This document shows positions 4,712 to 39,224 of a DNA stretch of 64,000 nucleotides, in pieces (within the stretch, counting starts at the first letter, position 1; each line of letters begins with the position of its first letter). Origin of the DNA: a virus. The stretch spans positions 1 through 64,000 of IMG/VR virus record IMGVR_UViG_3300008266_000014, one strand, 5' to 3'. The position numbers and the translations under genes were made by a program. Below the pieces are notes generated by a model. It saw only the letters and a list, made by a program, of their open reading frames with translations. It was not told the DNA's origin and did not search any database.

Positions 4712-5671
4712 ATGGCACACATGGTCGAAACAATGGCTTACGCGGGTGAAACTCCTTGGCACGGTCTTGGCAAACCAGTTCCAGCAGATCTTTCACCCTG
4801 GCAAATGCTTGATGCAGCTGGGCTAGATTGGAAAGTAGAAAAGATTCCTTCTTTTGCCAACATTAAAGGTAAACAAGTATACACCGGTAAAGATGCTCTT
4901 GTTCGTTCTACCGATGGTCGTATTCTGGATGTGGTGTCGCAGGACTGGAATCCTCTTCAAAATGAAGAAGCATTTGAGTTCTTCAATGATTTTGTTCACT
5001 CTGGTGATATGGAGATGCACACCGCTGGTTCGTTGAAAAATGGTCAGATTGTGTGGGCTCTTGCAAAAGTGAAAGAATCGTTCGAAGTGTTCAATGGAGA
5101 TCAGGTTGATTCATATCTATTGTTTACTCTACCTCACAAGTTTGGTCAGTCTATTGACGTTCGCTTTACCCCGATACGTGTGGTCTGCAACAACACTCTT
5201 ACACTATCACTTAGCACTAAATCAGATAATATGGTGAAGGTATCACATCGCCGCCAGTTTGATGGTGATGAAGTAAAACAGATGTTGGGTATTGCATCTG
5301 ATAAGTTGGCCAAGTACAAAGAGATGGCAAAATTCTTGGGCTCCAAGAAATACAAACAAGAATCCATTATTGAGTATTTTGATCGCATCTTTCCTGTTAA
5401 TGCTTACGGTCGTTCTAAGAACGAGGAAACCAAGGTCAAGAAACAACATTCAGATAATGCTGTTCTTGCAATGCAGGCTCTTGAAGAACAGCCTGGAGCA
5501 AACTTTGCGAAGGGGTCTTGGTGGCAAGCATTTAACGCAGTCACATTCTTGACTGACCATATCGTTGGTAAGACTCAGGAAAATCGTTTGACGTCTGCTT
5601 GGTATGGTCCTAACAAGGCATTGAAGGTAAAGGCGCTTGAGACTGCTGTTGAAATGGCGGAGGCAGCATGA
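4712..5671 (+). CDS. DUF932 phage/plasmid-like protein
   Basis: 319 residues from ATG 4712, chosen because GGAGATA sits 5-11 bases upstream; an earlier TTG at 4688 is less likely. The N-terminus (AYAGETPWHGLGKPV), DVVSQDWNPLQNEEAFEFF, the central FTPIRVVCNNTL and the late GSWWQAFNAVTFLTDHIVG are typical of the DUF932 / phage-plasmid-like family. That family is widespread on phages and plasmids and its biochemistry is undefined. The 124-base gap upstream holds a TTGACC (4642-4647) without a convincing -10 box, so the promoter is unclear. The stop overlaps the start of the lipoprotein gene (ATGA), indicating an operon. Confidence 0.85.
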   Translation: MAHMVETMAYAGETPWHGLGKPVPADLSPWQMLDAAGLDWKVEKIPSFANIKGKQVYTGKDALVRSTDGRILDVVSQDWNPLQNEEAFEFFNDFVHSGDMEMHTAGSLKNGQIVWALAKVKESFEVFNGDQVDSYLLFTLPHKFGQSIDVRFTPIRVVCNNTLTLSLSTKSDNMVKVSHRRQFDGDEVKQMLGIASDKLAKYKEMAKFLGSKKYKQESIIEYFDRIFPVNAYGRSKNEETKVKKQHSDNAVLAMQALEEQPGANFAKGSWWQAFNAVTFLTDHIVGKTQENRLTSAWYGPNKALKVKALETAVEMAEAA

Positions 5672-5790
5672 AGAAACTAGCATCGGTTCTGCTGGTGCTA
5701 GCTCTTACTGGATGTGGTACCGTTGGTGGTGCCATGTCCGGGATGGGTAAGGACCTATCGAAAGCAGGTGATTGGATCAGTAATAAATAA
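5668..5790 (+). CDS. Entericidin-like small lipoprotein, 40 aa
   Basis: ATG 5668 overlaps the DUF932 stop. The 40-residue product has a lipoprotein signal peptide (MKKLASVLLVLALTGC) with lipobox L-T-G-C, so Cys16 would be acylated. The remaining 24 residues are glycine-rich and end in an amphipathic stretch (GKDLSKAGDWISNK). The pattern GC-T--G--G-DLS--G--I resembles the entericidin family, small bacterial lipoproteins with toxin or antidote roles in cell lysis. A role in the host envelope during infection is inferred. Plain small lipoprotein is the safe reading; entericidin kinship rests on short similarity. Confidence 0.65.
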   Translation: MKKLASVLLVLALTGCGTVGGAMSGMGKDLSKAGDWISNK

Positions 5791-5871
5791 TGGTTTTCCC
5801 CAGTTAATTTTTAGCATTAACTTACTAGATAGTTAGTAGCCAATACTGGCTCAACTCATAAGGAGAAAAAT

Positions 5872-5946
5872 ATGAAGTGGACTGTTCCTACTGCAAATGA
5901 TATGCGTTTTGGTTTTGAAATCACAATGTATATCGCGAATCGTTAA
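5872..5946 (+). CDS. pqqA: PqqA, precursor peptide of pyrroloquinoline quinone
   Basis: A 24-codon gene starting at ATG 5872, with AGGAG at 5861-5865 six bases upstream. The peptide begins MKWTVP and ends FEITMYIANR. PqqA is the ribosomal peptide whose glutamate and tyrosine are cross-linked by PqqE/PqqD and trimmed to make PQQ. The diagnostic E-x3-Y pair is present as E16 and Y20, the same positions recalled for Methylobacterium PqqA. The surrounding pattern (KW start, R-x-G-x-E-[IV]-T-x-Y-x-x-N-R end) matches gammaproteobacterial-type PqqA. No pqqB, C, D, E or F is in the window, so maturation would rely on the host. The gene is bracketed by noncoding sequence and followed by a terminator, so it is likely made as a short abundant transcript. 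Confidence 0.93.
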   Translation: MKWTVPTANDMRFGFEITMYIANR

Positions 5947-5972: not shown

Positions 5973-5999
5973 TGAGCCCCTACTGGGGCTCATTTTTTT
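5973..5999 (+). terminator. Rho-independent terminator after pqqA
   Basis: An 8-bp stem (TGAGCCCC / GGGGCTCA) with a TACT loop is followed by seven T residues. A second, weaker hairpin just upstream (5947-5951 + 5953-5957 with 5965-5969 + 5971-5975) shares bases 5973-5975 with the terminator stem. The two compete slightly, which could allow partial readthrough into the rubrerythrin gene. Confidence 0.9.
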
Positions 6000-6011: not shown

Positions 6012-6446
6012 ATGAACTTAAAAGGCACAAAGACTGAGTTGAATCTCAAAGAGGCATTTGCAGGTGAATCACAAGCGAATCGCCGTTATCTATACTTCGC
6101 AAACATGGCTGACATTGAAGGGTCTCCTGAAGTAGCTGCTGTGTTCCGCCACACTGCTGAAGGTGAAACAGGTCACGCACATGGCCACATGGAATACCTT
6201 TTGAACGGTGCTGCTGGTGATCCTGCTACAGGTATGCAAGTTAAGAACGTAGCTGAAGCTCTTGAATCAGCTATTGAAGGTGAGACACACGAATACACCG
6301 ATATGTATCCTGGTATGGCAAAGACTGCTCGTGATGAAGGGTTTGATGAAATTGCTGACTGGTTTGAAACTCTTGCTAAGGCAGAACGTAGCCATGCTGG
6401 TAAGTTTAAGAAAACACTTGATGCTTATAACGCGGGCGTACAATGA
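6012..6446 (+). CDS. Rubrerythrin (diiron, without rubredoxin domain)
   Basis: 144 residues forming a ferritin-like four-helix bundle. All diiron ligands expected for rubrerythrin are present with normal spacing: E19, E52 and H55 (GETGH), E91 and E94 (GETHE), E125 and H128 (AERSH). The rubredoxin Cys4 domain that follows in classical rubrerythrin is absent, so electrons must come from a separate protein. The family reduces hydrogen peroxide. In a phage this would protect the infected cell from oxidative stress. ATG 6012 is preceded by CTGGAGACAAA. It is the first gene after the pqqA terminator and overlaps the next gene by ATGA. The high match to the family suggests acquisition from a bacterium. 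Confidence 0.9.
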
Positions 6447-7445: not shown

Positions 7446-7636
7446 TTATTTGTGTTTGTAGAAACATAAAACAATCAGATTACAAATCTAAGAACGAATT
7501 AATCAGTCGGCTGACTGAGGATGATGTTAGTTGTGGGCAGTGTTTAAACTACTGCAAACAACTCAAAGAACACACTATTCATCTAGAAGTGGCAAAGGCG
7601 ACGAATAGACTAAGATACCGCTGGTCGGTAACGTAG
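7442..7636 (+). CDS. Bfd-like [2Fe-2S] protein
   Basis: 64 residues. The N-terminal C-x-C (C4, C6 in IICVCRNI) and a second pair C-x2-C (C31, C34 in SCGQCLNYC) match the four cluster ligands of bacterioferritin-associated ferredoxin / BFD domains. The spacer between pairs is a little shorter than in E. coli Bfd, and a fifth cysteine (C38) is nearby. Such proteins carry electrons, for example to ferritin-like diiron proteins. With rubrerythrin three genes upstream and lacking its own rubredoxin domain, it may be its redox partner; that is inference. The last codons overlap the structured RNA element at 7570-7658. Confidence 0.75.
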   Translation: MIICVCRNIKQSDYKSKNELISRLTEDDVSCGQCLNYCKQLKEHTIHLEVAKATNRLRYRWSVT

Positions 7637-7658
7637 GGGCGGATCCTACATAGTGTGT
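7570..7658 (+). other. Structured RNA element before ssrA (unassigned)
   Basis: A 9-bp perfect helix (ACACACTAT 7570-7578 with ATAGTGTGT 7650-7658) closes a region holding two perfect 5-bp hairpins: TACCG 7616-7620 with CGGTA 7626-7630 (5-base loop), and GTAGG 7633-7637 with CCTAC 7645-7649 (7-base loop, directly stacked on the closing helix). The arrangement is tRNA-like in outline but lacks a T-loop consensus and an anticodon loop. It overlaps the end of the Bfd-like gene and sits just before the tmRNA acceptor piece, so it could be a processing signal or a regulatory RNA. Confidence 0.45.
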
Positions 7659-7659
7659 A

Positions 7660-7981
7660 ACATATTGTTGTAATTCCTTCAAAGTGAAGGCATTCTGGAC
7701 GTGGGTTCGACTCCCACCTAGTCCACCAGAAGTGTTGTTTAGGGTGATATGTAAGAGTTTAACAAGACTCTGAGGATTGGAATTCCTGACCTGTGAACAG
7801 CAGGACACTTCTGATGGGCTAGACATGGTTTCGACAGGGTGAGATAGCAGAGACGGCAACACGGTAGGCGATGACCGTAAATCAAGCAAAAAAAGTAACC
7901 GCAAATGATAGCGAGTACGCTCTAGCAGCTTAAGCTCTAGATGAGGTTTCGCCAGCTGTCCTTATCATCCAATCAGCTGGC
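7660..7981 (+). ncRNA. ssrA: Two-piece (circularly permuted) tmRNA
   Basis: The acceptor piece comes first, ending at 7728. It has a T arm (GTGGG 7701-7705 / CCCAC 7713-7717, loop TTCGACT) and a 3' acceptor strand CTAGTCC followed by ACCA. The coding piece starts at 7816 with GGGCTAG, which pairs with all seven acceptor bases (one G-U), then GACATGGTTTCGACAGG, the usual tmRNA 5' signature. The resume codon is GCA 7901, preceded by AGTAACC. The encoded tag is ANDSEYALAA (TAA at 7931-7933), so the full tag is A-ANDSEYALAA after the charged alanine. An 8-bp hairpin (7951-7958 with 7974-7981) closes the coding piece. tmRNA rescues stalled ribosomes and tags nascent proteins for proteolysis. The 5' end of the acceptor piece is approximate. 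Confidence 0.92.
7729..7815 (+). other. Intervening segment of the permuted tmRNA precursor
   Basis: The 87 bases between the CCA end and the coding-piece 5' end are expected to be removed during maturation. An 8-bp helix (AGAAGTGT 7728-7735 with ACACTTCT 7805-7812) extends the acceptor stem, and smaller internal hairpins lie within, for example CCTG/CAGG around 7790-7804. This layout is normal for permuted ssrA genes and shows that the two pieces are made as one precursor. Confidence 0.75.
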
Positions 7982-7997
7982 ATCACTCCAATCTTAT

Positions 7998-8669
7998 ATG
8001 TTTGAACAACGTCTATATCAAATTGTCAGAAATTCTGTTTCTGAAGATATGTGCTCTCTAATCGATCGCCAGGCTGAGATGGTGAGAAAATTTACTTATT
8101 TCAACGAGGGTATCGATCAATCGGACACAAACTATTTCTCTGACAATCTATGTAAAAATAGTTTTCCTTTGTATGGGTGGAGTTGTACAGATGCGTTATT
8201 GCAGATGTTACAGCCTAAGATAGAAGAAATTACTAAAAAGAAGCTTCTTCCAACATATAGCTATATGAGAATATATTATCCTGGCTCGGACATGAGGAGA
8301 CATATAGATAGACCGAGTTGTGAATACTCTGCGTCTCTATGCATATCAAATGATCCGGATCCCTGGGAACTGTGGGTTGAAAATCTAGAAGGTAGAAACT
8401 TACCTATATTACTATACCCAGGCGACATGCTGGTGTATAGTGGTGTAAAACTCCCACATTGGAGAACTCCTTATCAAGGCAACAGACAAACACAAGTTTT
8501 TTTTCATTATGTTGATGAGGAAGGCAAATATAAAGATTTCAAATATGATTGCAGGCAGGATCTAGGTATTGGATCTGCAGAAGATGCCAATTTGAAGTTA
8601 ATCGAACTATTTGATACACACGGAGACGAGCTTAGGAAAGACGCTAAGAGATTAGGTCTCACCGTATAA
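7998..8669 (+). CDS. 2OG-Fe(II) oxygenase
   Basis: About 223 residues from ATG 7998. An in-frame ATG at 7941 lies inside the tmRNA coding piece and is rejected. The metal triad is H102-x-D104 (RRHIDRPSCEYSAS) and H154 (VKLPHWRTPY), with R163 (GNRQTQVFFHYV) as the probable 2-oxoglutarate anchor. YPGDMLVYSG before the distal histidine is typical of the fold. The C-terminus continues with a helical extension of about 50 residues (KLIELFDTHGDELRKDAKRLG). The position directly after ssrA is shared with no obvious functional link. It is the third of four oxygenases in the window; the substrate is unknown. Confidence 0.78.
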   Translation: MFEQRLYQIVRNSVSEDMCSLIDRQAEMVRKFTYFNEGIDQSDTNYFSDNLCKNSFPLYGWSCTDALLQMLQPKIEEITKKKLLPTYSYMRIYYPGSDMRRHIDRPSCEYSASLCISNDPDPWELWVENLEGRNLPILLYPGDMLVYSGVKLPHWRTPYQGNRQTQVFFHYVDEEGKYKDFKYDCRQDLGIGSAEDANLKLIELFDTHGDELRKDAKRLGLTV

Positions 8670-19490: not shown

Positions 19491-20389
19491 CAACAGCATA
19501 CTTAGGAGAAGAAGGGTTTAGATGGTTCATTGGAAAAGTAGAGGATAGAAACGATCCTAAAAAAATAGGAAGGGTACGAGTCAGAATATATAATGTTCAC
19601 CCATTTAAAGAGGATGGTACTTCTGATACTGTAAATGTGCCCACTGCTCATCTTCCATGGGCTACACCAATATCATCAATAATGAGTGCAGGAATTATAA
19701 GTGATACGACAAATGATGGGGTCGGTATCAGTGCCGTTGGATTAATGGTTGGATCCACTGTGTTTGGTTTTTTTGCTGATGGTAACGATTGCCAGATGCC
19801 TATTGTGTTGGGATCTTTGGCTGGCTTATCTGGTGGCGATGAGCTAAGTGAACTTCCAAAATCTTCTATAGAAGAGAATTCTGTTGGAGCTCAGAAAAAT
19901 AAGACTAGAGTTAGTCCATACTTACCATTCCCAGGAGAGCCACCTTCTCCGTACCAAGCTAAATATCCCTATAATAAAGTAATGAGGACGGAATCAGGTC
20001 ATTTAATCGAAGTTGATGATACTCCCAACAAGGAAAGAATCCACATCCATCATAAAACTGGTACATACCTAGAAATGGATGATAGCGGTCAGGTAGTCAT
20101 AAAATCAGTAGATCAAAAATTTGACATTACAACAAAAGATAACAATGTTTATGTTGGTGGGAATGTGAATATGTTTGTGAGTGGAAATATTAATACCAAA
20201 GTCGGCGGTTCATATTCTCTTGATGTTACTGGTAACATTAATATCAACGGACGTGTTATTAATCTTAATAGGGGCGTGAATGGTGCTGCTCGTTTAAATG
20301 ATACTACGTTGGATAGCGACAGCGAGACGAACGGACCAGATTCAGGAAAAATTACATCTTCTTCCACCACAGTATTAATTGGGGATTAA
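19487..20389 (+). CDS. gp5: Baseplate central spike protein (gp5-like, no lysozyme domain)
   Basis: 300 residues against 575 in T4. The N-terminal OB-fold is clear: FRWFIGKVEDRNDPKKIGRVRVRIYNVHP, then VPTAHLPWATPIS and IVLGSLAGLSGG. The C-terminal part (residues about 160-280) is a needle-like beta-helix with short repeats such as NNVYVGGNVNMFVSG, NINTKVGG and VTGNINING. The lysozyme domain that T4 gp5 carries between these parts is absent. A muramidase domain occurs instead in the tape measure-like protein. It therefore likely acts as a membrane-piercing spike only. A small needle tip protein was not found. Confidence 0.85.
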   Translation: MTTAYLGEEGFRWFIGKVEDRNDPKKIGRVRVRIYNVHPFKEDGTSDTVNVPTAHLPWATPISSIMSAGIISDTTNDGVGISAVGLMVGSTVFGFFADGNDCQMPIVLGSLAGLSGGDELSELPKSSIEENSVGAQKNKTRVSPYLPFPGEPPSPYQAKYPYNKVMRTESGHLIEVDDTPNKERIHIHHKTGTYLEMDDSGQVVIKSVDQKFDITTKDNNVYVGGNVNMFVSGNINTKVGGSYSLDVTGNININGRVINLNRGVNGAARLNDTTLDSDSETNGPDSGKITSSSTTVLIGD

Positions 20390-20815
20390 ATGGCTGTTAC
20401 ATACGCAGATAAATTTACAACAACACCTCTATACAACGAGAGGTTTAGTGATTTTTATAGCAATCTAGGCAAGAATTTTGGTACCGGGGATGTTGCTCGG
20501 ATTACCAATGAAGAATCAATTTTTAGTTCACTTAGAAACATTGTACTAACCAGGAAAGGGGAAAGGCCATTCTTTCCAGAATTTGGTTGTAATATAACTT
20601 CCCTGCTTTTTGAAAATTACAACCAATTCACACAACGGGCTGTGGAGACGGAAGTTCGAACTGCGATAGAAAACTTTGAACCTAGGGTATCACTAATTCG
20701 TCTCTTAGTAAATGGACAGCCAGATGAAAACACCGTAGATGTGTCGCTTTATTTCACCATAATAAATAGACCAGAAACTTTTTCACTAAGCTTCCTTCTT
20801 TCAAGAATAAGGTAA
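20390..20815 (+). CDS. gp25: Baseplate wedge protein (gp25)
   Basis: 141 residues (T4 gp25: 132), a GPW/gp25 family protein. Diagnostic segments are NEESIFSSLRNIVLTRKGER, PFFPEFGCNITSLLFEN and ENFEPRVSLIRL, including the conserved ExPR-type loop. gp25 forms the inner core of each wedge and starts sheath assembly. It begins immediately after gp5 (adjacent bases) and ends one base before gp6. Confidence 0.93.
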   Translation: MAVTYADKFTTTPLYNERFSDFYSNLGKNFGTGDVARITNEESIFSSLRNIVLTRKGERPFFPEFGCNITSLLFENYNQFTQRAVETEVRTAIENFEPRVSLIRLLVNGQPDENTVDVSLYFTIINRPETFSLSFLLSRIR

Positions 20816-20816
20816 A

Positions 20817-22607
20817 ATGGCAAATTCTTCAATTAATCTAGTTGACTTAGATTTTAATGCTTTAAAGGCATCATTCAAAGATTATCTTGCTTCTCAGTCA
20901 AGATTCAAAGATTATAACTTTGAAGGGTCGAACATCAGCGTTCTTCTTGATGTACTTGCCTACAATACGTACCTCAATAGCTTTTATCTCAACATGGTTG
21001 CTAGTGAAATGTTTCTTGATAGTGCCCAACTAAGAGATAGTGTTGTCTCACATGCCAAGGAGTTGAATTATCTGCCTCGTTCATTCGTATCATCTGTTGC
21101 AAACGTCAATATATCTATTACACCTTCTACTGCTCAATCGTCTGTCACCATCCCTGCAAAAACATCTTTTACATCAAGGCTTGGTTCAAACACGTATACG
21201 TTCACCACAAAAGAATCCGTCGTGATTAACACAAGCAACAGTGGAGTTTTTTATGCAAACAGTGTATTGCTGTACGAGGGTGGGTATGTTACTGACAGCT
21301 TTGTAAGGAACACATCTGCTGATAACCAAAGATATATTTTAACAAACCCCAATGTTGATACTTCTAGTTTAGAAGTAACTGTTACTGAAGATGGGGGAAG
21401 TAGTGTGTACACATATACCCAGGCATTCTCTTTACTTGATATCATATCCACATCACAAGTTTTCTTTGTTCAGGCTTGTGAAAATGAGCAATATGAGATA
21501 ATTTTTGGTAATGACTTTTCTGGGAGATCTCCAAGAAACGGAGCTGTGATTGATGTAACATATAGGGTGTCTAGTGGAGAGCTACCAAATGGTACCGATA
21601 ATTTCATTAACAATTCAAGTATTGATGGACATTCGAATGTTTCAATAACAGTTAATCAGGATGCGTTTGGTGGGGCTGTTTCTGAATCAGTAAGCTCAAT
21701 TAAATTCAATGCACCTAGAAGCTTTGCAACCCAGGAAAGAGCTATCACAGAAAACGACTATAGATCATTATTGTTGCGAAGGTTTCCAGAAATTCAGGCT
21801 ATATCGGTATTTGGAGGTGAGAAAGAAGATCCTCCTCAGTACGGTAAAGTTTTCCTAGCCATAGACATAAAAGATTCTGACGGTATACCAGATACAAATA
21901 AATTTAATTACGTGGATTACCTTTCAGATAAAGTCCCGTTAGGAATAACACCAGTAATTGTATCCCCTGGTTTCGTATATTTGTCTGTAGAATCAACGGT
22001 AAAATACGACTATAACAGCACTACATTATCAAGTGGAGAGATTAAAACCACAGTGCTTAATGCAATCAATCAATTCAACGAGACGTATCTAAATGACTTC
22101 AACAAGACTTTTAGATTCAGTAATTTTGTTTCGGCAATAGATAGTAGTAATCTGTCAATCATCAACAACGACACTTTTGTTAGCCCATATTTTTTACTGT
22201 CTCCTACAATTAATACCGCAAGTAGTTTTTCAGGTTCGTTCAACACTGCTATTACAGTAGCAGTTCCCACTACTAAAACTCACTCAGATATTGATCCTGT
22301 GAAAGGAATATACTCGTCTCCTTTTGTTGTAAATGGACTGAGTTGCATTCTAGAGGATGATGGGGAAGGTAATATTCGTCTTGTGAAGGTTACCGATGAT
22401 ACTCACTTAGAAATATCCAAAGTAGGAACAATTGATTATTTAACAGGTACCTTTGCTATTTCCGATCTCAATGTTTCTAGTTATTCAGGTAACGGTATTA
22501 AACTCTTTGCGGATCCAGTTTCTCAAGATTTTAGTGTAACTCTCAAAGATATTTTAAAGATTAATATGTCTGACGTAATCGTCAACGTTGTTCAAGATAG
22601 AAGATGA
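20817..22607 (+). CDS. gp6: Baseplate wedge protein (gp6)
   Basis: 596 residues (T4 gp6: 660). Recognisable features: DFNALKASFKDYLASQSRFKD, the conserved NFEGSNISVLLDVLAYNTYLN and EMFLDSAQLRDSVVSHAKELNYLPRS, and ERAITENDYRSLLLRRFPEIQA in the second half. These belong to the gp6/gpJ wedge family, which forms the contractile baseplate ring. It overlaps gp7 by 4 bases. The family and order 25-6-7-8 leave little doubt. Confidence 0.92.
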   Translation: MANSSINLVDLDFNALKASFKDYLASQSRFKDYNFEGSNISVLLDVLAYNTYLNSFYLNMVASEMFLDSAQLRDSVVSHAKELNYLPRSFVSSVANVNISITPSTAQSSVTIPAKTSFTSRLGSNTYTFTTKESVVINTSNSGVFYANSVLLYEGGYVTDSFVRNTSADNQRYILTNPNVDTSSLEVTVTEDGGSSVYTYTQAFSLLDIISTSQVFFVQACENEQYEIIFGNDFSGRSPRNGAVIDVTYRVSSGELPNGTDNFINNSSIDGHSNVSITVNQDAFGGAVSESVSSIKFNAPRSFATQERAITENDYRSLLLRRFPEIQAISVFGGEKEDPPQYGKVFLAIDIKDSDGIPDTNKFNYVDYLSDKVPLGITPVIVSPGFVYLSVESTVKYDYNSTTLSSGEIKTTVLNAINQFNETYLNDFNKTFRFSNFVSAIDSSNLSIINNDTFVSPYFLLSPTINTASSFSGSFNTAITVAVPTTKTHSDIDPVKGIYSSPFVVNGLSCILEDDGEGNIRLVKVTDDTHLEISKVGTIDYLTGTFAISDLNVSSYSGNGIKLFADPVSQDFSVTLKDILKINMSDVIVNVVQDRR

Positions 22608-25600
22608 AAGAGATAGAAGATAGCATAAGTGTTCTTGTACAGAACCATTTTCCAGAGTTTTACAAGGAAGAGGGTGATACGTTCGTGGCTTTTGTCAAAG
22701 CATATTACGAGTGGGCCCAGCAAACCAACAACCACGTATATTTTGCAAGAAATCTTTTAGAATATAGAGATATTGATAAAACTATTGATGATTTCCTTGT
22801 CCACTTTAAGGAAAAATATCTGGTAGAAGCTCCCGTATCATATGATACAACAAGACAAAATATTAAAAATTCTTTAGACTTTTATCGATCAAAAGGAACC
22901 AAAAGAGGCACTGAACTCTTTTTTAAAGAAGTTTTAAACTCATCGGAAGTAGATGTTTATTTTCCTGGAAAGGATGTTCTATACGCTTCTGATGGAGAGT
23001 GGTTTGTTCCTGTATATCTAGAGGTATCACTATCGGATAAAACTAAGACATTTGTTGGAAAGCAAATAACTGGATCATTCTCTGGTGCTACAGCTTTTGT
23101 TGAAAGCGTAGGGCGAAAAGCTGTTGGTGGTAAGTTTTTTGATGTGGTTTTTATTTCTAACGTGAGAGGTAGCTTTCAGTATGAAGAAGTTATAACATCA
23201 GATGGAGTTCTTGAAAACTGTCCAAAAGTCATCGGTTCTTTAACCAACATTACGATAAACGATTCTGGTAGAAATTTTAATGTTGGTGATGTTGTAAACA
23301 TAGTTTCTTCACAGACAGGGAAACAGGGAAAGGCTAGAATTGATTCAATTGAATCTTCCACTGGAAAGGTATCATTTGATCTTCTTGACGGGGGAACTGG
23401 TTACAGAATAACGACTATTCCTCTCATTTCCGAAAAAACAATAAAAATAAACAGTGTTAGTTCTACGAATACGTATGTTACTTTCTTCACACCTGATGAG
23501 ACAATATACCAGCCACTTGCTAACCTAGTATTTAATACGTCTAATGCTTATTTTGATGTAGGTAATTTAATCACCTTTTCCAACTCTACTGCAAATGTAG
23601 CAACAGGGAGATTGGTGGGGACTACTCAGGTAGAAATATCTGGTGTTGCAACAAGCAATTCGACTTCAAATCTTGTTATTGGAACTGGTACTTCCTTTTC
23701 CTCTGAACTTGATGCCAATGACTATATTAGATTCAGCTCGTGTACATCTGTATTTCAAATAAACTCTATATCTAATGATACCCATCTGTATTTAACTACT
23801 AATGGTACTAATGTGGTTTCTAATACACTCACTATGGCAAATGGTGTCATGCTGTTAGTACCTGTTTCTGGTAATTTTACCCTAGCTGATAGAATTGCAA
23901 ATACAACAGCACTGGTGTCTTCCTACTCCAATGTAACAGCATCTGGAAAGTTTGTTGGTGGCAATACGACGTTTATTGGTCTTTATAATGTTAGTAATAC
24001 TTTCACAGCTAATGGGTATAACTACATCTATGGAGCATCATCTAATGTTTATGCCAACGTCGAGATAGTGGGTACTGGATCTGGTGCTACCTTTAGTATT
24101 GGTAGTTTATCTGATACTGAAACAGTGTATTTAAATTTGGATATAATTAGTGAAAATAACGCTATTGTTACAACTCAGCTCACTGGAACAGTTACGTCCA
24201 ACTCAACTAGCCCAGATGTTGTAGGGACAACAACTCTATTCTCAACAGAGCTTTATGATGGTGCTTATGTGAAGTTTTCTGGAAATACTCTAGTGTTCCA
24301 GGTAAACGCAATTACAAATAATACGTTTCTTTCTCTTAAAACCAACGGACCAGATGCAACATCAAACACCATCTCTATAACCAATGGGACGTATCTCTCC
24401 ATCCCACTTAACTGTTTGAAGTATGGATTTCCAAAATCTCTTAACTCAAATTCCACTACAATCATCAACAATGCTTTAACAAAGAATAGTTATACTTTGG
24501 GAACTATTGCTTCTTTAGCACAAATCAACCCTGGTAATAATTACAGCATTTCTCCAGTAGTAAGAATTAGGGATGATGAAATAGTTGGATTTGATAGAAG
24601 AAATTTAAATCTTGTTATTTCTGGGACGAGTGGAGTGTTTGTTGTTGGGGAGGAGCTGACACAGGACTTTTCAGATCCAGGTTTTACTTTGGAGATAAGT
24701 GGATCCAATACTGCAATATCTGTTACCGAAACCATTACTCAGCAGATAAACAACACATCTAATGCATACGGAGAAGTATCTTCTTCTAATCTATCAGTGA
24801 TTGTTGTTTCGACCAGCTCGAACTTTGTTAATTCTGCTTTGGGATCCAACCTGACAGGAACAATAACCTCAAACACAACAAGTCCTAGAGTTAATGGTTC
24901 TTCAACACTATTCTCGAGTGAAGTCACCGCTGGGGATTATATTAAATTTTCTGGAAATTCATTAATTTTCCAAGTTAACAATGTAGTTAGCGACACGGAG
25001 CTGTACCTAACAACAAATAGCTCATTATTAACTGCTGGAAACACATACGCTCTTGCTACAAATGTGGCAATAGGAATGACATCCAATACTAAATTTTTTG
25101 TAAATACAGCAATATCAAACAATATCCTTTCTATTTCCAGAGGTACAGTACTTTCAGTATCCAATACGTCACTGAATGTAAAAAGGAAGACATTTAATCA
25201 GTCATTCACACCAGGGGTTCTAATAACTGGAAGCACGTCTGGGGCATCTGCTAATGTTACATCAGTAACACAGATAGAAAATTCTGCAGTTATGGGTAAT
25301 AATGCAGTAGTGAATAGTTACGCTGGAATTGTAGAGGGATCAATATCTGGCATTAATGTGATCGACTCTGGTTTTTCATATGAAAACGGTGAGTCAGTAA
25401 ATATCGTTGGATCAAACACTTTATATATCGCTACTGGGTATGCTAATCTGATAAACCAAGGTGTCGGTGAAGGGTTCTTCAAATCCACAAAAGGATTTTT
25501 GAATAGTGATAAATACCTTCACGATGGGCATTTCTATCAGTTCTATTCATATCAGGTTAAGTCTCCACTCCCATTAAATGAATATTCTGAGACGCTCAAG

Positions 25601-25702
25601 AAATTCATGCACGTAGCAGGAATGATTTTATTTGGTAACGTATTCAAAACCAGTGTTGCCAATGTTACGATATCTTCTTTAGGTGTGACAATAGAAACAT
25701 GA
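22604..25702 (+). CDS. gp7: Baseplate wedge protein (gp7-like) with inserted beta modules
   Basis: 1032 residues, about the T4 gp7 length. The N-terminal ~150 residues are the conserved part (SVLVQNHFPEFYKEEGDTFV, YEWAQQTNNHVYFARNLLEY, DFYRSKGTKRGTELFFKEV). The middle is threonine/serine/asparagine-rich and holds three copies of a ~60-residue module ('GT-TSN-TSP-V-G-STLF-SE---GDYI-FSGN', near 23633, 24178 and 24856) that also appears in fibre and DUF4815 proteins. The C-terminus (FKSTKGFLNSDKYLHDGHFYQF, SYQVKSPLPLNEYSETLKKFMH) is again conserved. gp7 anchors peripheral baseplate parts. The inserted modules suggest exposure to the outside. It overlaps both neighbours by 4 bases. Confidence 0.82.
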   Translation: MKEIEDSISVLVQNHFPEFYKEEGDTFVAFVKAYYEWAQQTNNHVYFARNLLEYRDIDKTIDDFLVHFKEKYLVEAPVSYDTTRQNIKNSLDFYRSKGTKRGTELFFKEVLNSSEVDVYFPGKDVLYASDGEWFVPVYLEVSLSDKTKTFVGKQITGSFSGATAFVESVGRKAVGGKFFDVVFISNVRGSFQYEEVITSDGVLENCPKVIGSLTNITINDSGRNFNVGDVVNIVSSQTGKQGKARIDSIESSTGKVSFDLLDGGTGYRITTIPLISEKTIKINSVSSTNTYVTFFTPDETIYQPLANLVFNTSNAYFDVGNLITFSNSTANVATGRLVGTTQVEISGVATSNSTSNLVIGTGTSFSSELDANDYIRFSSCTSVFQINSISNDTHLYLTTNGTNVVSNTLTMANGVMLLVPVSGNFTLADRIANTTALVSSYSNVTASGKFVGGNTTFIGLYNVSNTFTANGYNYIYGASSNVYANVEIVGTGSGATFSIGSLSDTETVYLNLDIISENNAIVTTQLTGTVTSNSTSPDVVGTTTLFSTELYDGAYVKFSGNTLVFQVNAITNNTFLSLKTNGPDATSNTISITNGTYLSIPLNCLKYGFPKSLNSNSTTIINNALTKNSYTLGTIASLAQINPGNNYSISPVVRIRDDEIVGFDRRNLNLVISGTSGVFVVGEELTQDFSDPGFTLEISGSNTAISVTETITQQINNTSNAYGEVSSSNLSVIVVSTSSNFVNSALGSNLTGTITSNTTSPRVNGSSTLFSSEVTAGDYIKFSGNSLIFQVNNVVSDTELYLTTNSSLLTAGNTYALATNVAIGMTSNTKFFVNTAISNNILSISRGTVLSVSNTSLNVKRKTFNQSFTPGVLITGSTSGASANVTSVTQIENSAVMGNNAVVNSYAGIVEGSISGINVIDSGFSYENGESVNIVGSNTLYIATGYANLINQGVGEGFFKSTKGFLNSDKYLHDGHFYQFYSYQVKSPLPLNEYSETLKKFMHVAGMILFGNVFKTSVANVTISSLGVTIET

Positions 25703-27990
25703 GTAAACTTATCACAAACAATCTAAGACTTTTTAATGTTGATCAGTTTATAGAGTCTTTTACTGAACCCGGGTTCAACATCTACTATTTTTTTGTAGGC
25801 AATCCCCTTCCTTTTGCTATTGACAATTCTCCACCTACTCTATATGACAATGCTCAGACAGTGTTGGTAGATTCATACGAAAATATGATTTACGGTAAGA
25901 GAGTGTCATCCAATGATGTTGTGATGATGGCACGTCGTATTGACTGGCAAACCAACACCGTATACCAAAAATATACACACGATAGCAATACTCTCTATTC
26001 GCAGGATTATTTTGTTGTTGTGGATGAAGGGTCTTCATATAATGTTTTTAAGTGCTTGGATAATAGTGGGGAGACTCCTTCTACAGATCCTCCTTCATTA
26101 CTAGAGACAGCAGCTGACGATGATTTCTACTTCACTACTGATGGTTACCAGTGGAAGTATATGTATTCTATAACACCTACACAATTCTCCAAATTTTCTA
26201 CAAGTGAGTATATTCCAGTTTATGTAAACTCAAATGTTGTTGGTAATGCTGTTAGTGGGTCAATTGATAACATAGAAGTTGTTGCTGGAGGTAACAATTA
26301 CTCATCTTATGCAAATGGATCTTTTCAGGAAGTAAGAGTAGGGGGTAATCCATTAATTTTTGCAATTGATCCGTCAAATGCGTCCTCCAATACTAACTTC
26401 TATATTGGGAGTGCTATCAAGGTAGTTTCTGGAGCGGGTAGTGGTCAACAAAGAACTATTACTGGATATACTGTTTCAGGATCAACGAGACGAGTAATAA
26501 TTGATACTCCATTTAGCACAGCACCAACAACGTCATCAACATACGAAATCACTCCCTTGGTATCTATATCAGGAGATGGGACTGGTGCAATAGCAAGAGC
26601 GATTGTTAATTCAGTTAGTAACACAATATACAAAATTGAAGTTGTGGATAGGGGATACGGCTACACTTACGCGTCCGCAGTGATTACAGGAAATACAGGT
26701 GTTATCAATGTGTCCACAGGAACTGCTATAACTGCAAACAGTGCAACAGCAAAAATTATCATCAGTCCTCGTGGAGGACATGGGTCAAATGCAGCTATGG
26801 AGTTAGGATCCAGGCATGTAGGTATCAGTGTTACTTTTGATAGCTCTCTTTCTGGTAATAAGGTTGTTGATGATAATGATTTCCGAAGCATAGGAATACT
26901 ACGAGATCCACTTTTTTCGAACGCTGTTCTAGATGTTAGTAGTACTACAGGAACATTTACTGTTGGTGAATATGTTTACCAAACCCAAGGATCTCCAATA
27001 GCTGGTATTGTTATAACCAAACCTGGATCTGGGTACACTTCTAATGCAACAGTAACTATTTCTGGATCAAGTATTGCAGCTGCAGTTGCCAATGCTCAGT
27101 CAAATTCAACTGGCCGTATATCGCAAATAAATATATCAAACAACGGGCAAGGATACATTTCACCAACTGCAACAATTTCCGCACCATCTGCAATAACATT
27201 CAATGCAAACACACAAGTTTCAAATACAGACGATTTTATCGTAGTTTCTAACAATGTGTTTCAAAATAATGATATTGTGACATACTTGGTTGCTGCTGGT
27301 AACACTGCACTTACTAATTTATCAAATGGCTCTGCGTATTATGTTGTGAGTGCAAATGCTACTGGAGTCAAACTTTCTTCCACACTAAACGGAAGTGCTA
27401 TTAACTTGACCGCTGGTGCAAGTGAAGCAGGCCACAGTCTGAAGGGTGAAACAGCCACAGTTTCAGTGGTCGTTGATTCTGGTAAAATCACTACTGCAAC
27501 AGGTGTTGTGACAAGTGCAAATGATTCCGTAGTTAAGTTATCTAATGTGTTTGGTTTTTTTGTAACAGGTAACTCATCAGTTAACTTACTGCAGGGAAAT
27601 ACAAGTGGGTTTCAAGCGGCATGCGATACGGTAACACAACCAACTACATACTTTGATCAAACCTATAAAGTTGTTGGCTCACTACAGAGTGCAAATAACT
27701 TTGTTGAGGATGAGCTAGTTTTTCAGAGTGAGAATGCGAACGCCTACTTTTATTCATCAAACAACACAGTTGTAAGATTGATAAAAAAACGAGGAACAAT
27801 AAACCAGAGCGACATAGATACGAGTTATTATATTGAAGGCGATACCTCATCAGCACAGTTTCTTGTTTCTGGAGTTGTGGAATCTGATGTTGTCAAGGGT
27901 TCTGGGCAGGTAATGTACCTTGAAAATTTCACACCTGTTACAAAAACAAACGGACAGACAGAAACAATTAAATTACTTTTAGAGTTTTAA
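25699..27990 (+). CDS. gp8: Baseplate wedge protein (gp8-like), enlarged
   Basis: 763 residues, over twice T4 gp8 (334). The first 190 residues contain the gp8 core: FNIYYFFVGNPLPF, VDSYENMIYGKRVSSNDVV, MARRIDWQTNTVYQKYTHD, FKCLDNSGETPSTDPPS and TTDGYQWKYMYSITPTQFSKF. The rest is repetitive, beta-rich and serine/threonine-heavy, with several G-GY-S-A-V-I-type turns (RGYGYTYASAVI, GSGYTSNATVTI, GQGYISPTATI) indicating tandem small domains. In T4, gp8 forms a dimer in the outer wedge. The additional C-terminal domains probably decorate the baseplate. The next gene starts 10 bases later. Confidence 0.8.
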   Translation: MSKLITNNLRLFNVDQFIESFTEPGFNIYYFFVGNPLPFAIDNSPPTLYDNAQTVLVDSYENMIYGKRVSSNDVVMMARRIDWQTNTVYQKYTHDSNTLYSQDYFVVVDEGSSYNVFKCLDNSGETPSTDPPSLLETAADDDFYFTTDGYQWKYMYSITPTQFSKFSTSEYIPVYVNSNVVGNAVSGSIDNIEVVAGGNNYSSYANGSFQEVRVGGNPLIFAIDPSNASSNTNFYIGSAIKVVSGAGSGQQRTITGYTVSGSTRRVIIDTPFSTAPTTSSTYEITPLVSISGDGTGAIARAIVNSVSNTIYKIEVVDRGYGYTYASAVITGNTGVINVSTGTAITANSATAKIIISPRGGHGSNAAMELGSRHVGISVTFDSSLSGNKVVDDNDFRSIGILRDPLFSNAVLDVSSTTGTFTVGEYVYQTQGSPIAGIVITKPGSGYTSNATVTISGSSIAAAVANAQSNSTGRISQINISNNGQGYISPTATISAPSAITFNANTQVSNTDDFIVVSNNVFQNNDIVTYLVAAGNTALTNLSNGSAYYVVSANATGVKLSSTLNGSAINLTAGASEAGHSLKGETATVSVVVDSGKITTATGVVTSANDSVVKLSNVFGFFVTGNSSVNLLQGNTSGFQAACDTVTQPTTYFDQTYKVVGSLQSANNFVEDELVFQSENANAYFYSSNNTVVRLIKKRGTINQSDIDTSYYIEGDTSSAQFLVSGVVESDVVKGSGQVMYLENFTPVTKTNGQTETIKLLLEF

Positions 27991-28000
27991 AGAGGAATAA

Positions 28001-31000
28001 ATGTCACTTGAAACTAATTTCAACATATCACCCTATTTTGATGATTATGACGAGACGAAGAATTTTCAAAGAATTCTTTTCAGACCAGCTGTGCCTGTAC
28101 AGGCTAGAGAGCTAACACAGCTTCAGACAATACTTCAGAAGCAGGTTGAGAGATTTGGTGATAATATCTACAAGCAAGGGACAATTATCAAAGGATGTAC
28201 TTTCACCTATGATTATAATTACGAATATATAAAAATTAAAGATTTGCAGGTGAACGGCTTAGCTGCAAATCCATCTAGTTATGCTAACCTATATGCAATA
28301 GAAACCACTTCCAATCTTTACTCTATCGTAGTTAATAGCGCCCAAGGATTAGAATCTCAAGATCCAGATACAAATATATTATATGTGAAGTATATTAATA
28401 CTGGTACAGGAGAAAAAAAGAAATTTGCTAATAATGAGACTGTCACCCTCTACAATCAAGATTTTAGATTAGTATCTGTTTCCATCAATAGTGGTGGTAC
28501 TCTTTACAGCAACACTGACTACATTACTTTCAGCGGTGGTGGTGGGTCTGGGGCGTCAGCAAACATCGTCACATATTCAAACGGAACGATTAGATCCATT
28601 ATATTTTCCTCAACTGGAACAGGTTACGTTACTACTCCCTCAGCCAACATTGTAAACTCTACTGGTGGTTCGACAATAACAGGATCCGGAGCAAGTTTAT
28701 CAGTAATCAACTATGTTGCACAGGTAGTAGTTGCTAATAGTTCTTTCACTGCTAACAGCACAACTCCAGTAGGTGTTGGTACAGCTGTAACTGTTAGTGA
28801 TGGAATTATTTACCAGAAAGGCCATTTCCTAAGAGTAGAGCAACAAACAGTTATTGTTGATAAGTTTTCTAAAACACCTAACAATGTTGTGTTGGGCTTT
28901 TACACACAAGAATCCATTGTTAATAATAGCGTTGATACTTCTTTATTGGATAATGCTCAGGGATACTCGAACTATACAGCTCCGGGAGCAAATCGATTAA
29001 AACTTACTCCTATTCTTCAAGTGGTATCTGCAGCCAATGCTGCTTCAAATACCGAGTTCTTTAAACTTGTAGAATTTGAAAATGGGAGAGTTATTAAGAG
29101 AAAAACCGAGACAGAGTTTAACTCTATTGATAAAAAACTCTCGCAGAGAACCGCAGAGGAAAGTGGTGACTATGTTGTTAATCAGTTTCAGATCAGCACA
29201 TCAGATATTTCGAGCAATACAACCCATCTTAATGTAGTCGTTGGTCCAGGTGTTGGTTATGTTGATGGAACTAGAATCGAAATTAATGATTCCGTTACTC
29301 TTAAAGCGCGTCAAGGTGTAGATACAAACACTGCGTCATCGCAATCAATTGCAACAAACTATGGTAACTACGTTCTTGTAAAGGAAATGCTAGGTACATT
29401 TGATTTTACAACAGGGGCTACAGTAAATCTAAAAAATGCTTTGAACACTGATGTGTCCGATAATTTTGGAGGTGCTCCTAGCTCTGCCGGATCAACAATC
29501 GGCACAGCTAAAATTAGATCCTTGGAATATGAATCTGGCACTATAGGTGCACCTTCAGCCGTTTACAGACTGTATCTTTTTGATATTACAATGTCAAAGG
29601 GGTATACTTTTAAAGACACACGTTCAGTACAAGCTACGGGTGTTGTGGCAGATGTAGTTCTAGAAGATGGAAATGCAGTATTGAAGGATACTGATTTTGA
29701 CACTTTGGTATTTACGTCTGGATTTACTTCAGTCAACTCAATTGCTAATGTTGATTTAATTTATAGAACTGTTACAACAAACACTTTCAACACCAGTGGT
29801 AATACAACTATTGAAGTTACAGGTACGTACGATACATTCCCATACACTGCCGGTGGCACACTCAATTCAGTACAAGAACGAGAGTTTATAGTAATTCCTA
29901 CCGCAAATGCGATCAGTTCATCAAATCTAACCGGAACTGTGTCTTCATCTGGAAATGTGATTACCGGTTCAACAACTAATTTTATAAACCAGCTTGACGT
30001 GGGAGACTATATTAAATTCCAGGGCAACACAGGGATTTATAGAGTTTCTACTATCGCTAGCGCCACTTCAATGACTATTGAAGGAACCGGTGATCCTACA
30101 GTTTCTGCTAACAGTTTCGTACTTGCTTATCCTGCAAATGTACCTATAAGATTGGATAGAACTGGTGCAAATGTTCAGATTGGTGCTTTGGGAACAACTG
30201 CAGCAATCAATATTGGTAATACAATTACCGGATCTACCGGAGTCAAAGTTGTACACAATGTAAAGGTATCACCTGGTTCTAATATTATTCATAAAGCAAA
30301 GAGTGTAGTTAAGAGAGTATTTGTAAAACTATCCACTGATAAATTAACTGAAACTACAAAAGGACCATGGTGTCTTGGTATACCGGACGTATTCCAGCTT
30401 AACGCTGTTTATGTAGGAACAAGTAATACGTACTCAAATACCACAACAAATTATGTCTCAAGTTTTCAGCTTGAGACTGGCCAGACAGATAACTTATACG
30501 GTTTATCTTATCTAAGATATAAACCTGGAAGTACTCTTTCTCTGACTTCCTCCAGTTGTCTTTTAGTGGAAGTAGATTTATTCACACATGGATCGGGGTA
30601 CTACATCTCGTCTAGATCATATCCAGTCGATGATACTACAACCCCACTTCCTTCTAATAAAATTAGAACTGAGTCTATCCCTAATTTTACATCACCTAAG
30701 ACTGGTAAAGTAGAGAGTTTAAGAAATGTAGTTGATTTTCGTCCAATTGCTGCTAACACTGCTAACGCGGCTGCAACAACAGTAGCTTCTGCAACTATAG
30801 ATCCATCGTCCACAGAAACAATTACTGGCACTCTATATTTCCCAACACCCAATGAAGTGTTTGAGGCTGATGTTCAATACTACATGAGTAGAGCGGATAG
30901 AGTTATTCTTGATAGAAATGGTAACGTAACTATTAAGGAAGGTGTCTCAAGTACAACTCCAGTGCCACCGCAGGTACCAGATAAATCAATGTTGTTGGGT

Positions 31001-34000
31001 ACTATTTTAGTGCCTCCTTATCCTTCTCTTTCTCCAAAAAAGGCAGCAGAAGTGAAACGTCAAGACTACGCTACGTATGTCAAGATGGACCAGGTTAAGC
31101 GCTACACTATGAAGGATATTAAACAGATTGAAGAAAGACTAAAGAATCTTGAATACTATTCACTTCTCAATACACTAGAGAAGAATGCAAAAGATCTTGT
31201 TATCCCAAGTGAATCCAATAATGCTATTAACAGATTCAAGAACGGCTTCTTCGTTGATCCGTTGAATTCGTACGATGTAGCTAATGTTGATGATCCAGAA
31301 TTTAACATTTTAATTGATGATAAACAGTCTTACGCCCGTCCTCCAATAGATCAGAACACTATTGATTTAAAAATTAAATCTGCAAACTCGGTTAATGCGA
31401 CTGTGAAGGGTGACGTTGCTCTACTGTCGTACACAGAGGATGTTGCTTTCAATCAACCTCTTGCAACAAGGTACAGAAACCTTGCCCAGCTTGCATGGGG
31501 TTTTGAGGGAGCAATAAGAATCTTCCCAGAGTATGACAATTACTATGATTCAACTAGAAAAGCAGTTAAATTTACTTTTGATCTTTCCACACCACTGAAC
31601 GGTCTTATCAAAACCATTAATGATACAGTTGTGTTCAAAGCGGATTCGAAAAAAGTTACTGTTAAACAGTCAGACTGGGTTAATGTTGGTCCTACGTGGT
31701 GGCAGAATGGTCAAAACCAGCAGCAGGTTGCAACACAGACAACTACAACACAAACAACCACTGGAACAATTCAAGCTGGGTCTTCAGTACAGAGTAACCA
31801 AGAAATTGGTGACTTCCTCTCTGATTTTGATTTCAATCCTTTTATTCGTGGCCAAGAAATTTATTTTGTGGTTACTGGATTGAGACCTGGTGCTAGACAC
31901 TACGCATTTTTTGATAAGCAGTCTGTGGAGTCAAGACCAGGAGAAATTGTAAATATTTCTAGTATTACAAGTTCGGCGTCTCTAGAAAATGATAATAATT
32001 TTAGATTTACTGGGGTCAAGAACGCTAATCTCGTTGCAAATAGCACTGGAGGTCTCGCAGGTGTATTATATGTTCCTGCTGGCACCTTTAATGTGGGCCA
32101 GAGAGAAATTTTAATTACCGATGTCAATGACGTCGATAGTCTTGATACATCTATATCAAAAGCTACGTGCTCTTTCAACGCTTACAATTTCACCAAGCAG
32201 ATATCAAATCTGACTATGGTGACAAAGCAGCCGTCTACATACTCACCCGTCACCACAGTTAATACCATTGTAAACACAGTCCCTATTTCAAGAGTTAGAA
32301 GATGGGACCCACTTGCCCAGACATTTAATATCAACTTCAATGATGGTAGTGATGGGTGTTTCTTGACTAAGTTTGATTTATTCTTTAAACAAAAAAGTTC
32401 CACTCTTGGTTTAACAATACAAGTGAGGGAAACTGACAACGGATATCCATCGCCTACGGTGTTGACGCAAAAACAAATTGCAGCTTCTTCTGTGAATGTT
32501 AGTGATGATGGAACGTCTGCAACAACGATTGTTTTAGACACCCCAGTCTTTATAAGAAATAATAAAGATTATTGTATTACAGTAATGCCGGATCAAAATT
32601 CGCCAGATTATTTAATATGGACAGCTGTACCTGGACAGCCAGACGTAGCTACAAACAACGTTGACAATGGTGATTTTGGGATAGGAGTTCTGTTCCTCTC
32701 TTCTAACGATAAGGTTTGGACCCCGATTCAGAACGAAGATGTAAAAATTAAAGCATATTATGCTAAATTTACACCTACGTCTGGAACAGTCTTGCTTGAG
32801 AATGATAACTACGAGTTCCTTTCTATATCAAATACTGAGGGTTCTTTTGTTGGTGGAGAGCGAGTTGCACAGAAAGCAAATTCATACGTCACAGCAGCTA
32901 CCTTCACCGGAAATACCACCAGTGGTGTAGCAAATACGTCAGCAAGTCTAACCTCTACTGTCAGTGCTGGTGATTATTTACTGATTGTTTATGGAGACAG
33001 TGTCACATCTGCAAAGACTGGAACTGTTTCAGTGTCGTCTGGAAACACAACGGTCACAGGATCAGGCACGAGCTTCAATACCGAATATACTGTTGGTGAT
33101 TATTTACTAATCAGCAGTAATGTGAGAGAAGTTGTTGCTATAGCGAATTCAACCCAGATGACTATTGATGCTCCGCTAACAGCAGTCGCAGCTTCTGTTG
33201 CTCATTATGGAGTTACTGATACACTACAAATTAATAAAGTTCTTTCAGTCAATGCTACTTCTGTATCACTGAGAGACAACTTAATTAAAACAATCGACAA
33301 TGCAACAGTATATGCTGGTGTACAGAAAGTTGTTACAGGTATTGTTGACAAGGTAGGAACTGATAACACAATTGTTATTAAAAATTCTACCGCTGCTAAT
33401 AGCTCGTTTGTGTTTGCTTCTACGAAGTCCTTGGTTGGTGGCATTTCGCAAGCAAGAAGCACCATCAGTAGTGTGGATGATTTTACTGTTAATTATGTCG
33501 AACCACATATTTCTACAGTTGTTCCTAATCCTACAGGTGTGTCATTGACACAATCTATTGCTGGAACCTCAGCAGCAACTGCGAATCAATCAGTATCGTT
33601 TGGTGTTTCTAACAAAACTCTCTATGAAGCTGAAATTAGATCAAGAAGTAATGAAATTATTTTAGATTCAGGAAACAAATCTTTCAATCTATTTGTTTCT
33701 TTGACAAGACCATCAAATGTAAATAAAATAAGCCCTATCATCGATTTGAATCCTGCAAGTGTGGTTGTGTTGCAGAATAAAGTGAACAATTCAAGCAGTA
33801 ATGAAAATACGAAGTATGGATCTGCAACTGTTAAATATATTTCCAAGCAGGTAGTTCTTGCTGATGGGCTCGATGCTGAAGATTTGAAGGTTTATCTCAC
33901 AGCCTACAAGCCAGTGAGTACAGATGTGCTGGTCTATGGTAAATTCCTCAATAGTTCTGATACGGAATCGTTTAACGATAAAGATTGGACGCTTTTGGAT

Positions 34001-34507: not shown

Positions 34508-34734
34508 GTATAGTAAAAACCGATGTTTCTGATTTTGATAGGGATGTTGGTAATGGTGCGTTAATAAATAATAATGTTAACGCATTCACCCTCTATAAGC
34601 AAAGAAGACAGCAGCAGCAAGATGCAAATAGTCTTCAAACCCAGGTTGATAACTTGAAAACAGATATCAATGAAATCAAGAGTTTATTAATGGTCCTAAT
34701 TCAAAGAGATAGCAATGGCACTTTCAACAGCTAA
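34504..34734 (+). CDS. Small coiled-coil fibre-region protein, 76 aa
   Basis: 76 residues starting with ATG overlapping the previous stop. The N-terminal part is asparagine-rich (GNGALINNNVNAFTLYK); the C-terminal half is a glutamine-rich coiled coil (RRQQQQDANSLQTQVDNLKTDINEIKSLLMVLI). The design suggests a trimerisation or connector piece between the large DUF4815 protein and the next fibre. It overlaps the next gene by 20 bases. No named family. Confidence 0.65.
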   Translation: MSIVKTDVSDFDRDVGNGALINNNVNAFTLYKQRRQQQQDANSLQTQVDNLKTDINEIKSLLMVLIQRDSNGTFNS

Positions 34735-35836
34735 TGTAAACACAAGCACGGATTCTTTCCAAAACTGGATTGATAAAACTAACATTCTTCTTGATGCTTA
34801 TTCCACGACTATTGTAACCACCGCTGCAAATACCGGGGGTGGTACCACAGTCGGTAATGCTGTCATAAACGGCACTTTCCGAGCAAATACTTTAGTAGCT
34901 GGGGAAAATCTTAGAGGTGGTAACGTCACTACCAGTGGAGTCCTTTCAATATCCAGTAACGTATCGATAGGCAACTCTACTGTTAATACTGTTTTTAGCA
35001 CTACTACTATTGATACAGACCTGGCTCTAACAGTTGGGGGAGCAGCGACTCTCTCAGGTACTCTTTTGGTTAGTGGGGTGGCTACTCTTGCAGGAAATAC
35101 AATTCTTTCCGGAACATCCCACACAATTGCTGGTAATTCTAGTTTTGATTCTGGTGTTCTGTTTGTTGATGGTACAAATAATAGAGTTGGAGTAAATGAT
35201 AATACTCCTTCCGTTGCCCTTGACGTAACAGGGGACATTAACGTAACAGCTACTGCAAATGTTCAAGGAAATGCTAACGTAGGTGGAACATTTGGTGTCA
35301 CAGGAATTACTACACTAGCTGCTAACGTGAATATCGGCGGGGTTGCTACAGTATCCAACAACTTCAGTGTCACTGGAGATTCGAGACATAGTGGCGACAG
35401 ATTCGTTGTTACTACTTCAGGAGTGAGCGTTAATAGTGTAGCAACATTCACTGCAAACGCAACATTCCAGCAGCAAGTAGTTTCTCAGTCTAACACCCTT
35501 ACAATTAATGTTGCTACATTCATTACATCGTCAAATGGAGATCTAGGTTCAAATACAACATCCCCACTCTTGGTAATGAGTGTACCCAAGGCTACTTACA
35601 AAGGCGGCGAATTAATCGTAAGTATTACTAAATCCACAAAGTCCCAAATATCCAAACTTCTTTTTGTTCATGATAGTAGTGATGTTGAAATGACTGCGTA
35701 TGGAACAATAATGACTCCAGCACTAGACCCTGATCTTGGTACAATTACTGCGGGTATAAATAATGCCAATGTAGAAATAAAAATACAACAATCAACAGGA
35801 AATACGGCCGTTAAAATGATGGCAACCTTATTCTAA
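34715..35836 (+). CDS. Tail fibre-like protein, 373 aa
   Basis: The N-terminus (TDSFQNWIDKTNILLDAYS) is a recurrent attachment motif of marine T4-like fibres. The body is a repetitive beta structure rich in Thr, Ser, Gly, Asn and Val, with one copy of the 'FDSGVLFVDG-NNRVGVN' module (about residues 145-165). The C-terminal ~90 residues (GGELIVSITKSTKSQISKLLFVHDSS ... GTIMTPALD) look like a compact knob domain. It lacks the S74 chaperone seen in the next fibre. It probably forms trimers at the baseplate. Start ATG 34715 lies inside the preceding gene. Confidence 0.75.
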   Translation: MALSTANVNTSTDSFQNWIDKTNILLDAYSTTIVTTAANTGGGTTVGNAVINGTFRANTLVAGENLRGGNVTTSGVLSISSNVSIGNSTVNTVFSTTTIDTDLALTVGGAATLSGTLLVSGVATLAGNTILSGTSHTIAGNSSFDSGVLFVDGTNNRVGVNDNTPSVALDVTGDINVTATANVQGNANVGGTFGVTGITTLAANVNIGGVATVSNNFSVTGDSRHSGDRFVVTTSGVSVNSVATFTANATFQQQVVSQSNTLTINVATFITSSNGDLGSNTTSPLLVMSVPKATYKGGELIVSITKSTKSQISKLLFVHDSSDVEMTAYGTIMTPALDPDLGTITAGINNANVEIKIQQSTGNTAVKMMATLF

Positions 35837-39199: not shown

Positions 39200-39224
39200 A
39201 AAAGAACAAAAATAAGGTAGGGAA

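Follow-up and report, generated by a model that had tools for sequence, protein, structure and literature searches.

The presence of PqqA, the precursor peptide of the cofactor PQQ, in a phage has been known since 2020, when Coutinho et al. described it together with a methanol dehydrogenase in the Lake Baikal phage population VP_266 (PMC7678222), and pqqA figures among the virus-encoded genes compiled in a 2026 paper (PMC13188868). These reports answer a question raised in the initial annotation of the present locus, namely whether a phage PqqA had been described before. Within the literature searched, subscription journals and preprints being outside the search, no paper was found that deals with the breadth of phage PqqA, with its occurrence in OM43 phage isolates or with a terminator-flanked standalone form of the gene. 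The breadth, the presence in isolates and the terminator-flanked form reported below appear to be undescribed, and the wider pattern of pqqA in phages deserves a separate study.

The window analysed here corresponds to the first 64,000 nucleotides of a 155,530-bp virus record (IMG/VR IMGVR_UViG_3300008266_000014). The pqqA gene and its surroundings in this window are as follows:

5872-5946, + strand: pqqA, coding for the 24-residue PQQ precursor peptide MKWTVPTANDMRFGFEITMYIANR (translation and Pfam/NCBIfam profiles)
5917-5919 and 5929-5931, + strand: pqqA codons for E16 and Y20, respectively
5860-5865, + strand: ribosome-binding site AAGGAG, 6 nt before the pqqA ATG
5973-5999, + strand: intrinsic terminator with an 8-pair stem (6 G-C), a 4-nt loop and a T run (fold z = -3.8)
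5782-5789, + strand: AATAAATA, resembling a late promoter of the T4 type (NATAAATA) and located 90 nt 5' of pqqA
5782, 8674, 35755, 51903, 56242, 62659 and 63675, + strand: NATAAATA motifs
6012-6446, + strand: rubrerythrin, the next gene 3' of pqqA (PF02915, E = 3.9e-27)

The encoded peptide has a KW start, and its E16 and Y20 display the E-x3-Y spacing of the glutamate and tyrosine whose atoms become PQQ. It was recognised over the full length of both curated models, PF08042 from Pfam (34.2 bits for a cut-off of 21.1, E = 2.5e-8, profile positions 1-19 of 19) and the NCBIfam equivalog TIGR02107 (33.3 bits for a cut-off of 20, E = 3.1e-8, positions 1-21 of 21). With 24 residues and its own ribosome-binding site, the gene falls within the length range of the family (about 23-29 residues), and no match to the peptide was obtained among the PHROGs or the PDB chains. 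The profile scores lie well past chance and the 5872-5946 frame is a genuine PqqA, in agreement with the initial annotation, which had recognised the 24-residue peptide from E16, Y20 and the KW start. The good ribosome-binding site and the own terminator that it had also noted are both present, as listed above.

The phage nature of the contig was established from its structural genes:

54568-56250, + strand: terminase large subunit (PHROG matches), T4-like phage context
56281-58353, + strand: contractile tail sheath (PHROG 23), T4-like phage context
58920-60440, + strand: gp20-type portal protein (PHROG 213, E = 7.8e-204), T4-like phage context

Tail tube, baseplate, head protease and SSB genes of the T4-like type are found on the same contig, which is that of a T4-like phage. 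The pqqA gene was thus rightly taken as phage-borne and, as a host-type metabolic gene lying with T4-like structural genes on a bona fide phage genome, it is a candidate auxiliary metabolic gene. The portal protein is at most 56% identical to that of the nearest phage records, and no near-identical DNA to window positions 20000-40000 was found among phage records.

No pqq genes were seen adjoining pqqA in the record, and the PqqE profile, the maturation-gene profile searched record-wide, gave no match at E ≤ 1e-3 in the whole 155,530 bp. These results bear out the earlier view of a solitary pqqA with no maturation genes adjacent to it. Similarly, none of 30 PqqA phage records contained a PqqE above the curated cut-off, which was exceeded in 23 of 25 PqqA-bearing bacterial genomes. 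That no phage record searched holds a qualifying PqqE suggests that the phage contributes the consumed precursor alone and would depend on PqqB-E of the host. A search of the 155,530-bp record for a PQQ-dependent alcohol dehydrogenase (TIGR03075) gave no match either. A PQQ dehydrogenase of the methanol/ethanol family was detected in only 1 of 50 PqqA phage records, so that co-selection with an enzyme of this family is not general. The record concerned, a 72-kb viral contig (G050), encodes a full-length enzyme (locus L369, 490-2364) and, carrying both pqqA and the dehydrogenase, echoes the Lake Baikal phage case. This enzyme has a likely signal peptide and a WDYDG stretch, which we take as a hint of the lanthanide (XoxF) type.

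To follow pqqA in environmental phages, IMG/VR was scanned with two degenerate DNA patterns, the first fixing the E and Y codons and the second leaving both free. The first scan highlighted at least 120 contigs, almost all of which contain a PqqA reading frame preceded by a ribosome-binding site, and the second at least 120 viral contigs. Together, the scans yielded at least 206 viral genes, coding for at least 113 distinct peptides. Among the second-pattern matches listed, E and Y are at the right places and the stop lies exactly 22 codons from W in 184 out of 184; these loci come partly from the first pattern, in which E and Y are fixed, and the loci unique to the second pattern also all have E and Y. 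At the reacting residues, the codons used are GAA (153) and GAG (12) for the glutamate, TAT (83) and TAC (82) for the tyrosine. The E and Y of viral PqqA are strictly retained, which we count as a sign of selection. The pN/pS over all codons is 0.27, a value that is biased by search patterns fixing codon bases and for this reason was not relied on. A T4-type portal was detected in 12 of 50 IMG/VR PqqA records and not in the other 38, some of which are fragments; the largest PqqA-bearing IMG/VR contig reaches 356 kb.

The elements flanking the gene recur as well. An RBS-like motif is located 5' of 196 of the 204 viral pqqA copies among the matches listed. A terminator lies within 100 nt 3' of 79 of 185 viral pqqA genes versus 76 of 1597 other ORFs from the same loci (p ~6e-43), and it follows the gene in 72 of 120 bacterial pqqA genes: the viral gene retains the bacterial pqqA-terminator layout. 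Late-promoter-like sites are also found 29-93 nt 5' of several late genes in the window, where the NATAAATA motif was observed 20 times on the + strand for 11.3 expected, and 3 times on the - strand. Such a site precedes pqqA at 32 of 190 viral loci (17%) versus 6% of other ORF starts and is therefore not universal; as a sequence likeness, AATAAATA 5' of pqqA is no more than suggestive of a late expression. The gene neighbourhood of viral pqqA is variable across loci. Rubrerythrin is present within 3 kb of pqqA, in either order, in 10 of 206 viral loci among the matches listed, and this proximity may reflect a shared redox or peroxide theme. One relative is encoded by Pelagibacter phage Mosig (71% identity). 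On the other side of the gene, a lipoprotein-like ORF of 40 residues (window 5668-5790), just 5' of pqqA, scored exactly at the Pfam Entericidin cut-off.

In cultured phages, tblastn revealed pqqA in Melnitz (four records), Venkman, P19250A, MEP301, MEP401 and MEP402, which are phages of OM43-clade methylotrophs, and also in the podovirus contig ctXG6705, whose PqqA is identical to a host peptide at all 22 residues compared. The phages concerned differ in type: Melnitz is classified under Kyanoviridae (141 kb) and MEP402 under Zobellviridae (44 kb), and the genomes of Venkman and MEP301 are of 35-39 kb. The PqqA copies of OM43 phages resemble host PqqA across the full length, and those of Melnitz, Venkman, MEP301 and MEP402 are of the Methylophilaceae type, matching the known host family. 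In the cultured-phage annotations examined, pqqA is missing or overlapped by a 'hypothetical protein' on the wrong strand, and the isolation papers (Melnitz, MEP401, dilution-to-extinction) make no mention of PqqA. Owing to its small size the gene escapes gene callers, which has hidden its reach even in cultured model phages. Two hits were rejected: that in 'Acinetobacter phage MD-2021a' (L357, CAKLQF020000010.1) lies on a contig of bacterial appearance, where pqqBCDE, ppk and a peptidase gene adjoin pqqA in the stretch examined, and that in Vibrio phage 1.204.O is spurious, with no PqqA-like frame.

The host was approached from the peptide type and from an RNA gene of the window:

7613-7985, + strand: permuted (two-piece) betaproteobacterial tmRNA (Rfam RF01850, 137.1 bits; RF04321, 142.8 bits)

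The window PqqA, with I after FE and YIANR (FEITMYIANR), belongs to the Burkholderiales type. An I after FE is found in 43 of 46 Burkholderiales peptides (bacterial loci of known clade), and all 26 methylophilaceal peptides compared carry V after FE and YV[MC]. The best matches come from Derxia, Oxalobacteraceae and Comamonadaceae (18 of 22 residues identical), and nearest-neighbour typing assigned the peptide to Burkholderiales, with Ferrovales as a close second. In leave-one-out assays, this typing never mixed up Methylophilaceae and Burkholderiales, and as a control four phages of known host (Melnitz, Venkman, MEP301 and MEP402) were correctly called Methylophilaceae. ARAGORN places the tmRNA at 7636-8024 with a predicted tag ANDSEYALAA. 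A beta-tmRNA is present in 17 of 50 PqqA phage records, that of the window included, and its distribution by peptide (17 of 27 records with beta-type PqqA versus 0 of 22 others) is confounded by the shortness of many tmRNA-less records; such a phage-borne RNA may serve as a host marker. The tmRNA of the window fits Burkholderiales and Methylophilaceae alike and the PqqA type speaks against the latter; a DNA search with the tmRNA returned short weak matches and no host genus. The host is probably a betaproteobacterium. With a Burkholderiales-type PqqA and a beta tmRNA, a methylotroph host using methanol dehydrogenase, as proposed in the initial annotation, is not established, the peptide matching Burkholderiales best. 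Other PQQ dehydrogenases occur in Burkholderiales.

Taken together, these data make it likely that the phage gene encodes a functional PQQ precursor peptide from a betaproteobacterial host, sustaining host PQQ in infection. The gene would have been acquired from such a host, and fresh PqqA would be made during infection from the phage's own terminator-bearing gene. The phage peptide, we infer, would then be bound by host PqqD and PqqE, which would cross-link E16 to Y20, and PQQ would be completed by host proteases, PqqB and PqqC. Periplasmic PQQ dehydrogenases, whichever of them gains, would stay active and feed electrons to respiration during virion building. One PqqA is destroyed per PQQ, hence the substrate and not the enzymes would be worth carrying. 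Members of the Methylophilaceae are reported to possess 3-12 copies of pqqA, the other pqq genes being mostly single-copy (PMC4109929), a dosage that fits a substrate limit and is consistent with the earlier suggestion that precursor supply could be limiting. Two pqqA genes within a few kb were also seen on five bacterial contigs (L252, L262, L297, L304 and L321), in agreement with the extra pqqA dosage of methylotrophs. PQQ turns over slowly in many cells, so that a gain over the course of a single lytic cycle is not self-evident.

Other explanations for a phage PqqA were considered. The peptide could act as a competitive decoy, bound by host PqqD/PqqE or cross-linked without maturation, which would lower host PQQ. 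A substrate-like peptide that comes without enzymes could inhibit, but loss of E or Y, or divergence at the reacting residues, would then be expected, yet neither residue is lost in any of the 184 viral copies among the matches listed. The identity between the ctXG6705 peptide and a host peptide over the 22 residues compared, together with the conserved bacterial pqqA-terminator layout, also argues against a decoy, which we regard as very unlikely. We hold as equally unlikely a cross-linking by host PqqE for another end, be it signalling, a part played in anti-defence or superinfection, or the making of some other RiPP product. PqqA-annotated peptides have indeed been observed co-expressed with defence systems in a metagenome study (PMC11118758), but the match to the TIGR02107 equivalog is full-length, no PqqE-like radical-SAM maturase was found in the record of the window phage and OM43 phage PqqA is like host PqqA over its whole length.

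That pqqA is functionless cargo, neutral or newly captured, would be compatible with the ease with which short genes are acquired and with the variable surroundings of the viral copies; however, copies by the hundred, spread over diverse phages, retain the exact length, E/Y, RBS and terminator, and this explanation seems most improbable. Finally, the contig itself could be bacterial or chimeric and its pqqA not derived from a phage, a risk that is real in databases, as illustrated by the 'Acinetobacter phage' record with pqqBCDE. Against it, the present contig encodes a set of T4-like phage proteins (terminase, portal, tail sheath, tail tube, baseplate, SSB), PqqE is unmatched in the record, neither a pqqBCDE cluster nor other bacterial chromosomal genes were seen around 5872-5946, and complete isolate genomes carry pqqA too, so that this origin is scarcely credible.

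Returning to the supply of PQQ precursor by the phage, the recurrence of pqqA suggests that phages keep the host PQQ supply going during infection. We lean slightly towards a broader reading, in which precursor-only supply is a strategy widely used by phages: an autonomous, terminator-flanked pqqA matched to the host type would be carried by unrelated phages that infect many PQQ-making bacteria, methylotrophs and beyond, and the PQQ precursor would be a common infection bottleneck. PQQ powers methanol and other alcohol dehydrogenases, the enzymes that connect one-carbon compounds and sugars with respiration in the sea and in lakes. If phages sustain PQQ in dying cells, the oxidation of methanol and alcohols by infected cells would be altered, and the OM43 phage-host pairs allow the role of phage pqqA to be tested directly. 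The published medium for OM43 includes 1 nM PQQ, an addition that could mask such an effect.

Compared with the known systems, the window phage shares with VP_266 (PMC7678222) a PqqA carried by a T4-like phage and read as support of PQQ supply; VP_266, assigned to Methylophilaceae, encodes a methanol dehydrogenase, whereas the window phage has neither this enzyme nor the methylophilaceal PqqA type. With the OM43 phages it shares a standalone pqqA, no pqq enzymes being annotated adjacent to the gene in the four regions examined, but the Melnitz, Venkman, MEP301 and MEP402 peptides are of the Methylophilaceae type, unlike its own. Bacterial PqqA of the Burkholderiales type (PF08042/TIGR02107) presents the same length, W/P/R/FGFE-[IV]-T-x-Y core, E-x3-Y spacing, RBS and terminator; the genomes that encode it have PqqE, in contrast to the window phage, and V5 of the window peptide is absent from the bacterial peptides compared. 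A parallel in function would be with photosynthesis genes of cyanophages such as psbA, by which a phage likewise replenishes a host component consumed in the course of infection, psbA coding for a fast-turning protein subunit and PqqA being a peptide substrate of which one is consumed per cofactor.
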